Source: Streptomyces sp. NBC_01283 (GTDB lineage Bacteria > Actinomycetota > Actinomycetes > Streptomycetales > Streptomycetaceae). Taken from it: a DNA stretch of 64,000 nt. The notes under the pieces are model-generated. The model saw nothing but the letters and a program-made list of their open reading frames with translations. It did not search any database and was not told the DNA's origin. Where the stretch lies: NCBI RefSeq assembly GCF_041435335.1, contig NZ_CP108430.1, positions 6,361,001-6,425,000 on the forward strand, written 5' to 3'. This document shows positions 13,731-59,513 of this stretch, piece by piece (position 1 is the stretch's first letter; every line of letters starts with the position of its first letter). The position numbers were made by a program, and so were the translations under genes.

Positions 13731-14975
13731 TCAGCCTGTGCTGACCTGCAGTTCCTTGACTCCGTTCAGCCAGGCCGAGCGGAGCCTGCGGGGGTCGGAG
13801 ACGAGCCGCAGTTCGGGCAGCGCGTCCGCGATGGCGTTGAAGATGAGGTTGATCTCCAGGACCGCGAGCGACTTTCCGAGGCAGAAGTGCGGGCCTCCGC
13901 CGCCGAATCCGAGGTGCGGGTTCGGGTCGCGGGAGATGTCGAACTTCTCCGGCTCCTCGAACACGTCGGGGTCGTTGTTGGCCGAGGAGTAGAAGATGCC
14001 GACGCGGTCGCCCTTCTTGATCCTCGCCTCGCCGATCTCGGTGTCCTGGGTGGCGGTGCGCTGGAAGGAGACGACGGGGGTCGCCCAGCGCACGATCTCC
14101 TCGGCGGTGGTATCCGGGCGCTCGCGCTTGAAGAGTTCCCACTGCTCGGGGTGGGTGAGGAAGGCGTGCATGCCGTGGGTGATGGCGTTGCGGGTCGTCT
14201 CGTTGCCGGCCACCGCGAGCAGGATGACGAAGAAGCCGAACTCGTCGGAGGAGAGGTTGCCTTCGTCCTCGGCGGCCACCAGCTGGCTGACGATGTCCTT
14301 GGCCGGGCACTCCTTGCGGGCGGCGGCGAGGTTCATCGCGTACGAGACGATCTCCATGGCCGCCTCGGCGCCGACCTCCTCGGTGATCGCGTACTCCGGG
14401 TCGTCGTAGGCCGCCATCTTGTTGGACCAGTCGAAGATCTTCGTCCGGTCGCCCTGGGGGACGCCGATGAGCTCGGCGATGGCCTGGAGGGGAAGTTCCA
14501 CGGCCACGTTCGTGACGAAGTCGAAGGATCCGTCGGCCGCGGCGTTCGCCCGGGCCGTCTCGACGATGGAGCCCGCGCGGTTGCGCAGGGCGTCCTCCAG
14601 GGAGCGGATGGCGCGGGGGGTGAAGCCGCGCTGCACGATCTGGCGGACCCTCGTGTGCTGGGGCGGGTCCATGTTCAGCATGATCAGCTTCTGGACCTCG
14701 ATCTGGTCGCGGCTGATCGTCTCGTTGAAGCGGATGACCGCGGTGTTGAGGTTGGAGGAGAACAACTCCGGGTGCGTGGAGACGTACTTGACGTCCGCGT
14801 GCCGCGTGACGGCCCAGTAGCCCGAGTCGTCGAAGCCGGAGATGCGCGGCGGCTGGGTGATCCAGCGCACCGGTTCCGTCTGCCGCAGCTGGGCGAACTC
14901 CGGGTGGGGCACGCGCTCTTGGAGCAGGTCGGGGTCGGTGAAGTCGAACCCGTCGGGCAGCGCTGGACAGGGCAT
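13731..14975 (-). CDS. Cytochrome P450, CYP125-like (steroid side-chain hydroxylase type)
   Basis: A 414-residue soluble P450. The haem-binding loop FGGGGPHFCLGKSLA places the thiolate at Cys365; the I-helix is AVAGNETTRNAITHG. From memory, long stretches match Mycobacterium CYP125, the C26/C27 hydroxylase of cholesterol: PDGFDFTDPDL, LIMLNMDPPQHTRVR, ELPLQAIAELIGVPQ and EEIVRWATPV. It would hydroxylate a terminal methyl of a steroid-like side chain using ferredoxin electrons. The ATG at 14975 has GGAG 6 bases upstream. It diverges from a FadA5-like thiolase across a KstR-like site. The true substrate need not be cholesterol. Confidence 0.9.
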   Translation of the reverse strand: MPCPALPDGFDFTDPDLLQERVPHPEFAQLRQTEPVRWITQPPRISGFDDSGYWAVTRHADVKYVSTHPELFSSNLNTAVIRFNETISRDQIEVQKLIMLNMDPPQHTRVRQIVQRGFTPRAIRSLEDALRNRAGSIVETARANAAADGSFDFVTNVAVELPLQAIAELIGVPQGDRTKIFDWSNKMAAYDDPEYAITEEVGAEAAMEIVSYAMNLAAARKECPAKDIVSQLVAAEDEGNLSSDEFGFFVILLAVAGNETTRNAITHGMHAFLTHPEQWELFKRERPDTTAEEIVRWATPVVSFQRTATQDTEIGEARIKKGDRVGIFYSSANNDPDVFEEPEKFDISRDPNPHLGFGGGGPHFCLGKSLAVLEINLIFNAIADALPELRLVSDPRRLRSAWLNGVKELQVSTG

Positions 14976-15184
14976 CGGCAACTCCAGGAGTTCAGTTCTG
15001 GGTTCTGAGTCTCGGGCCGGGGTCCGGCCTCCTGATTCTGACGGTCCATCAGGAGATGCCCCGCAAGGTAGTAACGGGTTCTACAAGAGGCAAGGCCCTC
15101 GACGGCACGGCTTTCGTGCAGGTAGTGCGCAAGGTGCGTGCAAGCCCCTTGCGGTGCCGGGGTCGCGCTCAGCAGACTGCATGC

Positions 15185-15208
15185 AGAACTAGAACGCGTA
15201 CTAGTTCT
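15185..15208. promoter_or_regulatory. KstR-like palindrome between P450 and thiolase
   Basis: AGAACTAG and CTAGTTCT are 8-base arms around an 8-base centre (15185-15208). Within it, 15190-15203 reads TAGAACGCGTACTA, one base off the KstR core TnnAACnnGTTnnA. It lies 210 bases before the P450 start and 51 before the thiolase start, so it could control both. Confidence 0.65.
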
Positions 15209-15258
15209 CCGCGTGGGTGCCGGGACACTCCCGCGGGATGTGGATGGAGAGGACGCCC

Positions 15259-57441: not shown

Positions 57442-57465
57442 ATCTTCGTACGAGGGAGCCGCACC

Positions 57466-58542
57466 ATGCGCGCAGCCGTACTGCACGAGATAGGCCAGGA
57501 CAAACTAGAGGTGCTCGACGACGTCGAGACGGTGGGCTTCGGCCCCGGCAAGGTGAAGATCCGGGTGCGGGCCACCGGCCTGTGCCACTCCGACGTCTCC
57601 GCCATGAACGGCGTACTGCCGCAGCCCGCGCCGTTCATCCCCGGCCACGAGGGCGCGGGCGAGATCGTCGACGTCGGCGACGGCGTGACCGGCATCAGTC
57701 AGGGAGACCGGGTCCTGGTCTGCTGGCTGCCCGCCTGCGGCCAGTGTCCGGCGTGCAAGCGCGGCCAGAGCCAGCTCTGCCTCGCCGGGTTCATGAACGC
57801 GGGCACCCCCAACTTCAAGCGCCCCGGCGGGGATGTCTTCGGCTTCGCGGGCACGGGGACGTTCACCGAGGAGGTCGTGGTCGACGCGGGGTGCGCGGTG
57901 CCGATCCCGGACGACGTGCCCTTCGACATCGCGGCCCTGATCGGCTGCGGGGTGACGACGGGCCTCGGCGCGGCCGTCAACACCGCGAAGGTGGAGGCCG
58001 GTGCGTCGGTCGCCGTCATCGGCTGCGGCGGCGTCGGCATCTCCGCGATCCAGGGCGCGCGGCTCAAGGGCGCGGCGCAGATCATCGCCGTCGACCCGGT
58101 GGCGTCGCGGCGCGAGGCGGCCCTGCGGTTCGGCGCGACGGAGGCGGTCTCCCCGGACGAACTGGCCGACGCCAAGCAGCGGATCACCGCGGGCGAGGGC
58201 TTCGACTACGTCTTCGAGGTCGTCGGCAAGTCCGCCACCGCACGCACCGCCTACGAGACGACACGGCGCGGCGGCACGCTCGTCATCGTCGGCGCGGGCG
58301 CCATGGACGACAACCTCCAGCTCAACATGTTCGAGCTGTTCTTCGACGAGAAGAAGATCCTGCCGTCGATGTACGGCGGCGGTGACGTCCTGCAGTCCTA
58401 CGAGCGGGCCATCGCGCTGTGGCGCGCGGGCCGGATCGACCTGGAGAGCCTGATCACCCACCGGGTGCCGCTCTCCGAGATCAACGAAGCGCTTGACCAG
58501 ATGCGTACGGGCGTCGCGCTGCGTACGTGCATCGAGATCTGA
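57466..58542 (+). CDS. Zinc-dependent alcohol dehydrogenase
   Basis: A 358-residue medium-chain alcohol dehydrogenase. Catalytic zinc ligands include Cys40 in GLCHSD and His61 in PGHEGAGE; the structural zinc site is ACGQCPACKRGQSQLC. The NAD motif is VAVIGCGGVGISAIQGA. It resembles mycobacterial AdhB-type enzymes under KstR. It could oxidise the alcohol left by the P450 to an aldehyde for the aldehyde dehydrogenase at 24488. Confidence 0.92.
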   Translation: MRAAVLHEIGQDKLEVLDDVETVGFGPGKVKIRVRATGLCHSDVSAMNGVLPQPAPFIPGHEGAGEIVDVGDGVTGISQGDRVLVCWLPACGQCPACKRGQSQLCLAGFMNAGTPNFKRPGGDVFGFAGTGTFTEEVVVDAGCAVPIPDDVPFDIAALIGCGVTTGLGAAVNTAKVEAGASVAVIGCGGVGISAIQGARLKGAAQIIAVDPVASRREAALRFGATEAVSPDELADAKQRITAGEGFDYVFEVVGKSATARTAYETTRRGGTLVIVGAGAMDDNLQLNMFELFFDEKKILPSMYGGGDVLQSYERAIALWRAGRIDLESLITHRVPLSEINEALDQMRTGVALRTCIEI

Positions 58543-58559
58543 GAGGACTTCGATCCCTG

Positions 58560-59513
58560 ATGGCACAGCCATTGCCACGGCCACTGGACGGTTTGGCCGC
58601 GATCGTGACAGGAGCGGGCCGGGGCCTCGGGCGCGCGGAAGCCCTCGAACTCGGCAGGCTCGGCGCGAGCGTCGTCGTCAACGACTTCGGCCAGCCGGGC
58701 CGCGACGGCTCGGGCGAGGCGTCGGCCACGCCCGCCGAGGAGGTCGCCGCCGAGATCCGGGCGGCGGGCGGGCAGGCGATCGCGCACCTGGGCGATGTCG
58801 CGGACCACGAACAGGCGCGCGGGCTCGTCCGGTTGGCGGTCGACACGTACGGCAAGCTCGACATCCTGGTGAACAACGCGGGGATCCTGCGTGACCGGAT
58901 GATCTTCTCGATGAGCGAGAGCGAGTGGGACTCGGTCATCCACGTCCACCTCAAGGGCCACTTCAACACCACGCACTTCGCCTCCGTGCACTGGCGCGAG
59001 CGGTCCAAGGCGGCGGGCGGCCCCGTCTACGGCCGGATCGTCAACACCTCGTCCGAGGCGTTCCTCGCGGGGTCGGCGGGCCAGCCGAACTACGCGGCGG
59101 CCAAGGGCGGCATCGTCGGCCTGACGACGTCGAGCGCGCTGGCGCTGCGCAAGTACGGGGTGACGGCCAATGTCATCTGCCCCCGGGCGCGGACCCGGAT
59201 GACGGAGGACGTCTTCGCCGGGTACCAGGAGCCGGGCGCGGGCGAGCTGGACGCGCTCGCCCCCGAGCATGTGGCGCCGCTGGTCGGCTACTTGGCGTCA
59301 CCCGCGGCCTCCGGGGTCAACGGACAGCTGCTCGTGGTGCACGGCGGCATGGTCGCGGTGGTCGAGCGGCCCAAGGTGGCGGCGAAGTTCGACACGGCGA
59401 AGGACGTCTTCACGTACGAGGAACTGGACGAGGCCCTGTCGCCCTATTACGCGGGGCGGCCGGACGGGGAGACGTTCGCGGCGTCGGAGGTCCTGGGCCT
59501 GAAGCGGGGGTGA
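58560..59513 (+). CDS. SDR-family hydroxyacyl-CoA dehydrogenase, Hsd4A-like
   Basis: A 317-residue short-chain dehydrogenase: cofactor motif TGAGRGLGRAEAL, NNAG in ILVNNAGILRD, Ser in VNTSSEAF, and the Tyr-x3-Lys in NYAAAKGG. The C-terminal extra of about 60 residues (PKVAAKFDTAKDVFTYEELD) is found in the FabG/Hsd4A type. Length and pattern recall Rv3502c, which oxidises the 3-hydroxyacyl-CoA in steroid side-chain removal. It ends the MaoC operon, just before a very strong terminator. Confidence 0.9.
   Translation: MAQPLPRPLDGLAAIVTGAGRGLGRAEALELGRLGASVVVNDFGQPGRDGSGEASATPAEEVAAEIRAAGGQAIAHLGDVADHEQARGLVRLAVDTYGKLDILVNNAGILRDRMIFSMSESEWDSVIHVHLKGHFNTTHFASVHWRERSKAAGGPVYGRIVNTSSEAFLAGSAGQPNYAAAKGGIVGLTTSSALALRKYGVTANVICPRARTRMTEDVFAGYQEPGAGELDALAPEHVAPLVGYLASPAASGVNGQLLVVHGGMVAVVERPKVAAKFDTAKDVFTYEELDEALSPYYAGRPDGETFAASEVLGLKRG

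Follow-up and report, generated by a model that had tools for sequence, protein, structure and literature searches.

A 64,000-nucleotide stretch of the chromosome of Streptomyces sp. NBC_01283 (GCF_041435335.1, NZ_CP108430.1, positions 6,361,001-6,425,000; genome 9.59 Mb, 5 contigs), referred to here as the window, encodes a relative of KstR, a TetR repressor of mycobacteria, and carries several copies of a KstR-like palindrome between divergently transcribed genes. The locus raises the question of whether these elements form a regulon and, if so, which substrate it serves and how widely it is shared in the genus. An initial annotation had proposed a scattered KstR-type regulon for steroid side-chain degradation, and this proposal is well supported by our sequence comparisons. 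From these it is likely that a KstR-type repressor runs a chromosome-wide regulon with two arms, one for the sterol side chain and a second, overlooked in the initial annotation, for an operon of methylmannose polysaccharide (MMP) metabolism that diverges from kstR itself.

The regulator and its palindromic sites

The regulator gene (33763..34398, minus strand) encodes a protein that matches the solved KstR structure 5cw8 with 143 bits and has, in the alignment, a recognition helix (GTLYRYFPS) made of the same residues. It scores 199.8 bits against NF033703, the NCBIfam KstR model, compared with 50.5 bits for the second-best match in the genome, and shares 36-50% identity with relatives of the same class outside the genus Streptomyces. 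Judged by these matches, the protein is a distant KstR. The 2007 study of mycobacterial KstR had named S. coelicolor SCO2319 as a possible orthologue, with 32% identity and no synteny (PMC1995591).

The candidate operator TnnAACnnGTTnnA has 13 matches with at most one mismatch in the window against 2.29 expected, a number reached by none of 100 shuffled sequences. Seven of the matches are the boxes described below (all given on the plus strand), while the other six (15694, 26292, 33753, 49452, 57148 and 58321) fall within or right at genes; no role was assigned to them. The four exact (24334, 34552, 47696 and 56477) and two near (15190 and 24413) sites of the initial annotation are all present and all stand between divergent genes; the box at 15070 is an addition to that list. 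For the comparison across species we took the top matches of each search, so that close species dominate, and used shuffled controls that preserve base content only.

The exact box TGAAACTTGTTCTA (34552..34565) lies between kstR and manT, the first gene of the divergent operon, and is found with at most two mismatches in 80/80 named loci, which are the top 80 among 522 relatives; one shuffle per locus never came within two. The site said to precede the regulator is indeed there, but what it keeps constant is its spacing to manT, the divergent glycosyltransferase gene (66-74 bp upstream in 79/79), and not that to kstR (103 to more than 260 bp). One of the named loci with kstR and the site belongs to S. 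lavendulae CCM 3239 (L132). Between the CYP125 and FadA5 genes there are two near matches, AGTAACGGGTTCTA at 15070..15083 on the CYP125 side, seen again as its reverse complement in 29/30 CYP125 loci, and TAGAACGCGTACTA at 15190..15203, with one mismatch; a form of the latter within three mismatches occurs in 30/30 loci, in 23 of them with a single mismatch, as against 34/600 shuffles and 1/30 downstream regions. The exact box TAGAACTAGTTCCA (24334..24347) is followed by a second box, TAGAACTGGTATCA (24413..24426), which is TnnAACnnGTTnnA with one mismatch, and in other species a site with up to three mismatches lies upstream of 63/71 related aldehyde dehydrogenase genes and 60/67 hydrolase genes. 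The remaining exact boxes are TGGAACGTGTTCTA (47696..47709), whose counterparts in all six readable FadE34 upstream regions have two mismatches, and TGGAACGCGTTCTA (56477..56490).

The ligand of mycobacterial KstR is steroid-coenzyme A (CoA). In the favoured reading, a KstR dimer would bind the 14-bp palindrome, which would lie at the -10 region or cover it, and would repress both the sterol genes and the MMP operon; we infer that an acyl- or steroid-CoA would free it from DNA. One window site runs on into TTCTAGATT, a possible overlap with a -10 element noted by eye, and such an overlap has been reported for the mycobacterial site (PMC1995591). The mycobacterial system resembles the present one in its TetR repressor, in the palindrome TAGAACnnGTTCTA and in a site before the regulator's own gene (PMC1995591).

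The exact form of TnnAACnnGTTnnA occurs at 31 places in the whole genome, 4 of them in the window, compared with 10 for the reversed pattern. Of the 27 places beyond the window, four are associated with genes of sterol type. The genome scan that the initial annotation had suggested as a possible refutation, by a lack of enrichment before lipid genes, did not refute its proposal. We retained these four places and dropped the idea that all 31 matches mark regulon members. Two further candidates were excluded because support was lacking: an exact TGCAACTAGTTGCA just before a gene resembling old yellow enzyme/dienoyl-CoA reductase (L042:2001, by eye) and a site inside an aldehyde dehydrogenase-like gene (L035). 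The tighter form TAGAACNNGTTCTA, with up to one mismatch, has four places in the window and four elsewhere: a perfect palindrome upstream of a dehydrogenase gene (4.60 Mb), one place in the start of a cholesterol oxidase-like gene (1.66 Mb) and two with no evident sterol gene nearby (6.04 and 7.07 Mb). As a separate observation, some motif places are mirrored at equal distances from the ends of the chromosome contig (G000:C1:52878/9372147 and 166894/9258131), the latter pair with mirrored genes as well, which points to inverted repeats at the chromosome termini, about 167 kb long or longer.

Genes behind the sites and the putative side-chain pathway

In mycobacteria, the genes for CYP125, FadA5, FadE34, FadD19, ChsE4-ChsE5 and Ltp are known as targets of KstR. 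FadE34 itself is a two-domain enzyme. The gene names given in the initial annotation to the corresponding set in the window mostly hold when compared with solved structures and family profiles. The first box pair separates a CYP125-type steroid C26 monooxygenase (13731..14981, minus strand; 510 bits to the CYP125 structure 2x5l) from a FadA5-type steroid 3-ketoacyl-CoA thiolase of uncertain start (15217..16428, plus strand; NF005889 690.7 bits, cut-off 515; 4ubv 514.9 bits). The second pair lies between a metallo-beta-lactamase (MBL)-fold hydrolase of the Strvi_7410 family (23225..24274, minus strand; NF053820 670.9 bits, cut-off 525) and a divergent aldehyde dehydrogenase (24488..25954, plus strand), which passed no curated cut-off among the listed families and is followed by a small Fer4_13 ferredoxin (25951..26154, plus strand), possibly the redox partner of CYP125.

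Behind the box at 47696, on the plus strand, lies a two-domain acyl-CoA dehydrogenase of FadE34/ChsE3-like type (47751..49994), of which the N-terminal half resembles 6wy8_A and the C-terminal half 6wy9_A and 4x28_A, so that the halves match the small and large chains of the heteromeric steroid dehydrogenase type. An SCP2-type thiolase follows (49991..51181, plus strand; 6hsj 512.3 bits; NF006102 628.2 bits, cut-off 436). The box at 56477 precedes three plus-strand genes, for a double hot-dog MaoC hydratase (56587..57441; Pfam MFE-2_hydrat-2_N and MaoC_dehydratas), a zinc alcohol dehydrogenase recognized by family profiles (57466..58542) and a short-chain dehydrogenase/reductase (SDR; 58560..59513; NF005862 483.7 bits, cut-off 414) whose role may be Hsd4A-like. 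The names FadE34 and Hsd4A are our assumption from architecture and precedent. A major facilitator superfamily (MFS) transporter gene diverges from FadE34 (45802..47538, minus strand; Pfam MFS_1 with a C-terminal CarboxypepD_reg domain) and is a possible, unproven member of the regulon; it could encode a steroid exporter, and in other species none of five upstream regions of this gene had a site within three mismatches.

The five units counted by the initial annotation over 45 kb are those of the window; they are joined by no fewer than four others, at distances of about 1.8 to 4.7 Mb. At 1.657 Mb, a glucose-methanol-choline (GMC) oxidase with Pfam GMC domains and, by eye, a start resembling a twin-arginine translocation signal is cholesterol oxidase-like: among the 120 closest relatives listed, at least 10 are named cholesterol oxidase, the rest being mostly 'GMC oxidoreductase' or unnamed. 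This gene has one site 62 bp into the coding region and another about 40 bp before it, and both recur within three mismatches in 30/30 loci (single-site shuffles reaching three: 78/1500). The two conserved boxes of such genes are about 101 bp apart (L056:8897 and upstream), one of them within the stretch that encodes the signal-like start, a spacing that might permit looping or a roadblock.

A distance of 3.6 Mb separates two further dehydrogenase genes, both of which carry a site of their own. The gene at 4.600 Mb is ChsE5-like (6wy8_A 203.3 bits; 4x28_D 184.5 bits), and its perfect palindrome is kept without mismatch in 28/30 loci and within two in 30/30 (shuffles within two: 2/1500). The other, at 8.236 Mb, is ChsE4-like (4x28_A 438.8 bits) and has an exact site, found with up to two mismatches in 30/30 loci (shuffles 2/1500; downstream regions 0/29 within three). 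They match different chains, D and A, of the single crystal entry 4x28, which we take to be ChsE4-ChsE5. ChsE4 and ChsE5 form a single alpha2-beta2 enzyme of cholesterol breakdown (PMC6678751).

The unit at 8.260 Mb has an exact site and comprises an acyl-CoA ligase (NF005863 741.7 bits, cut-off 543), a divergent hydratase (NF005864 424.6 bits, cut-off 316; NF051848, EchA19, 376.8 bits, slightly below 400), a DUF35 protein (ChsH2-type zinc-ribbon and OB domains) and a pair of Ltp-type thiolases. By gene order, the ligase would be FadD19 and the thiolases presumably Ltp3 and Ltp4. The core GAACAGGTTGCA of the site between ligase and hydratase is found again in 29/30 loci. CYP125, FadD19 and an Ltp3-Ltp4 aldol-lyase make up the described route for C24-branched sterols (PMC6678751), and the set as a whole is of the same side-chain gene types as the mycobacterial KstR regulon.

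These outside units bear on the substrate. The initial annotation had considered that this may not be whole cholesterol but a side chain or an acid, either bile-acid-like or an endogenous isoprenoid. It had seen no ring-cleavage genes in the window, and a profile search for KshA (PF19298) likewise found no match in the whole genome, an absence that would suit such an acid; no Mce4 importer was seen in the window, and no whole-genome search for Mce4, KstD or HsaC was made. Against this stand the cholesterol oxidase-like gene with its two sites, the ChsE4/ChsE5-like genes, and CYP125, the FadD19-like ligase and the Ltp-Ltp-DUF35 set, which suit sterols with an alkyl side chain branched at C24 (PMC6678751), while several Streptomyces change or consume yeast sterols (PMC13170338). 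We consider a regulon for bile or isoprenoid acids very improbable; the sterol-type genes outside the window suggest instead that whole sterols are probably attacked and that the side chain alone is consumed.

In the pathway that these genes predict, cholesterol oxidase would yield a 3-keto sterol, CYP125 with the ferredoxin would hydroxylate the terminal carbon, the alcohol and aldehyde dehydrogenases would take the hydroxylated chain to the acid, and the FadD19-like ligase would convert this acid to its CoA thioester. A first round of beta-oxidation would employ ChsE4-ChsE5, EchA19/MaoC, the SDR and FadA5, a second would be opened by FadE34, and branches at C24 would be taken off by Ltp-Ltp-DUF35. 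The expected products are propionyl- and acetyl-CoA, with a C22 or C19 nucleus left over whose rings would stay unopened in most species.

Distribution in Streptomyces and the weight of the evidence

We surveyed 150 Streptomyces genomes, the present one included, using counts and Fisher values that ignore kinship. KstR was found in 140, CYP125 in 104, ChsE5 in 104, FadD19 in 103 and ChsE4 in 102, the last count omitting three matches (G032, G085 and G144) regarded as paralogues. Taken as four sterol markers, CYP125, ChsE4, ChsE5 and FadD19 occur together in 98 genomes, are all missing from 44 and are mixed in 8. A cholesterol oxidase of the type found here is present in 51/150, copies at 50-55% identity being omitted. 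KshA matches above 280 bits (KshA_C, PF19298) occur in 9/150, all nine with CYP125; this count omits 30 of 39 genomes, in which the matches are weaker (at most 101 bits). These numbers place the side-chain half of the pathway in about two thirds of species and the ring-opening step in few, and most pathway-bearing species should accordingly clip the side chain and keep the rings, as far as gene content predicts. In one genome (G070), two more KstR relatives (L388 and L389; 35-36% identity) share a contig, while a different contig has a KshA match (313.7 bits); these might belong to a steroid ring pathway under separate regulators.

Several results weigh against a sterol regulon under KstR. The regulator does not reach the 280-bit cut-off of NF033703, and we dropped its assignment as an NCBIfam KstR member for this reason; the oxidase at 1.657 Mb, similarly, has a cholesterol oxidase model as its top NCBIfam match with only 97.3 of the 850 bits called for. 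The tight form TAGAACNNGTTCTA is not enriched in number (8 genome places versus 7 for the reversed control). Judging by the flanking open frames and not by family searches, no sterol gene is evident at 23 of the 27 exact places outside the window; called genes enclose 13 of the 27, and the cholesterol oxidase place is one of these. The site between FadD19 and EchA19 is the weakest of those compared, with two to four mismatches (within three in 28/30 loci and in 64/1500 shuffles). One genome (G071; L390, L212 and L291) has all four markers and conserved sites, and KstR was not found in it, through either an assembly gap or a real loss. Finally, KstR is present in 35 of the 44 genomes without sterol markers.

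Some of these points would be expected if the sites were read by another TetR protein, or were promoter-linked repeats, and the likeness to KstR were incidental. The score below the cut-off and the genome that retains sites with no KstR found would fit, as would the 61 matches to the KstR model in the present genome at E 0.001, mostly other TetR proteins. We nevertheless regard it as very improbable, given the recognition helix shared with solved KstR, the 14-bp palindrome, which is also that of mycobacteria (PMC1995591), the single strong KstR match in the genome scan (199.5 bits, the next 50.5) and the occurrence of CYP125 in 103/140 genomes with KstR versus 1/10 without. As to the last of the adverse points, KstR in 35 of 44 marker-free genomes means that sterols cannot be its sole business.

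The methylmannose polysaccharide operon beside kstR

The operon divergent from kstR (34620-37806, plus strand) consists of a ManT-type alpha-(1->4)-mannosyltransferase of family GT4 (34620..35975; 444.9 bits to the ManT structure 7qsg), an S-adenosylmethionine-dependent methyltransferase (35975..36718; Pfam Methyltransf_11), the counterpart of pMeT3 by gene order and the cluster locus tags in PMC9883506, and an MmpH-type MMP hydrolase (36715..37806). The annotators' 'prenyltransferase' for the last gene was dropped in view of its 372.7-bit match to solved MmpH (7qsj). The structures 7qsg and 7qsj are ManT and MmpH of the MMP pathway, and a ManT homologue and acetylated MMP are on record for S. 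griseus (PMC9883506). The operon resembles the mycobacterial manT-pmeT3-mmpH-meT1 cluster in having manT, a methyltransferase and mmpH in that order (PMC9883506); it differs in that none of the called frames right behind mmpH is a second methyltransferase (the genome was not searched for MeT1) and in that a kstR gene diverges from it, with a KstR-type box. Neither 'regulator' nor 'KstR' appears as a word in the main text of PMC9883506, which places the M. smegmatis MMP genes at MSMEG_648 tags, and no locus tag starting MSMEG_648 is present in the main text of PMC1995591, the KstR study of 2007. Within open PubMed Central, which leaves subscription papers and preprints outside its scope, we found no paper pairing 'methylmannose polysaccharide' with 'KstR' and none combining '3-O-methylmannose polysaccharide', 'transcriptional regulator' and 'cholesterol'; among the papers listed there for KstR and Streptomyces, what comes closest is the possible orthologue SCO2319 (PMC1995591) and the proposed origin of KstR with Mycobacterium and Rhodococcus (PMC3388012).

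This second arm would extend to nearly all species. In 20 genomes hand-picked from the 35 marker-free genomes with KstR, manT adjoins kstR in 20/20, and the site between them is found within three mismatches in 19/20 and within two in 17/20. The ferredoxin, aldehyde dehydrogenase and MBL hydrolase genes lie within 10 kb of kstR in 72, 73 and 69 of the 80 named loci; in the 20 marker-free genomes they gave two weak matches, in stretches that reach about 2 kb to each side. In most named relatives the ferredoxin and aldehyde dehydrogenase are the next recognized genes beside kstR; in the window a lanthipeptide synthetase-like gene (26415-29042, by eye) and further genes separate the ferredoxin from kstR (26415-33500).

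In other families of the class, KstR adjoins FadE34, CYP125/ChsE, FadA5 or FadD19-type genes or stands near manT, the kstR-manT pairing being found again in two of them (f17 and f26). In the KstR tree 11 forks stay open, among them the deeper ones, the root is arbitrary and the joining of two long rows is flagged; we used only two supported clades, one in f17 (100/100), with CYP125/ChsE, FadA5 or manT as neighbours, and one in f26 (99/92), with FadE34 or manT. In one f17 locus (L385) the palindrome that separates kstR from manT is perfect, and another (L377) has TAGAACGCGTTACA before manT; f26 loci have a weaker site, with three mismatches.

These observations give substance to the idea that the ancestral main job of KstR was acyl-CoA homeostasis through MMP, with the sterol genes as accessories. 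MMP would bind long acyl- and steroid-CoAs, the same thioesters would release the repressor, and polymer and pathway would rise together. The conserved kstR-manT site in marker-free genomes, its fixed spacing to manT and variable spacing to kstR, and the proximity of kstR and manT in f17 and f26 all speak for this order of events; the forms of KstR in other families that neighbour FadE34, CYP125, FadA5 or FadD19 leave the order open, and in L377 kstR and manT are 1.8 kb apart. We give this history a little less than an even chance. For the present-day two-arm regulon, we hypothesize that MMP may act as an acyl-CoA buffer. A bolder combination, which we put forward tentatively and regard as rather doubtful, is that KstR, found in nearly all Streptomyces, is fundamentally a sensor of acyl-CoA for MMP, that the polymer carries or buffers CoA-bound sterol and fatty intermediates inside the cell, and that sterol use confined to the side chain, with the nucleus discarded, is the rule in the genus and comes into play when it preys on fungi.

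Set beside its mycobacterial counterpart, this is a known regulon type in a new variant form, with the MMP operon as an unexpected partner. The neighbour of kstR is here the MMP operon and in mycobacteria FadE34; unlike the mycobacterial regulon, moreover, the present one has no KshA in the genome, its genes are scattered, with ChsE4- and ChsE5-like genes far apart, its cholesterol oxidase-like gene bears sites and its regulator is under the NCBIfam cut-off. It also shares a P450 type and a cholesterol oxidase with the CYP125A13/ChoD systems of sterol use in Streptomyces, for which the text available to us covers single genes or co-culture expression and not a KstR regulon (PMC9728343, PMC13170338); the main text of PMC13170338 does not mention 'KstR'. 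In S. peucetius, CYP125A13 is a P450 that hydroxylates cholesterol (PMC9728343). In S. lavendulae YAKB-15 grown with yeast, choD and cyp125A13 were up and most ergosterol was lost, and among eight further strains S. platensis nearly exhausted the yeast sterols while S. lividans altered them minimally, keeping up to 60.5% (PMC13170338).

Taken together, gene content and sites suggest that many Streptomyces appear to be set for side-chain removal from sterols such as fungal ergosterol. A 2012 comparison traced KstR back to an ancestor shared by Mycobacterium and Rhodococcus (PMC3388012), and in a survey of 2016 no steroid catabolism pathway was found in 55/57 Streptomyces genomes (PMC4810484); a Streptomyces-wide KstR-type regulon with conserved sites, covering mainly the side-chain half, qualifies both views. 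It also suggests a genetic basis for the reported consumption of yeast sterols by Streptomyces (PMC13170338), and may point to strains that naturally halt at the steroid nucleus.

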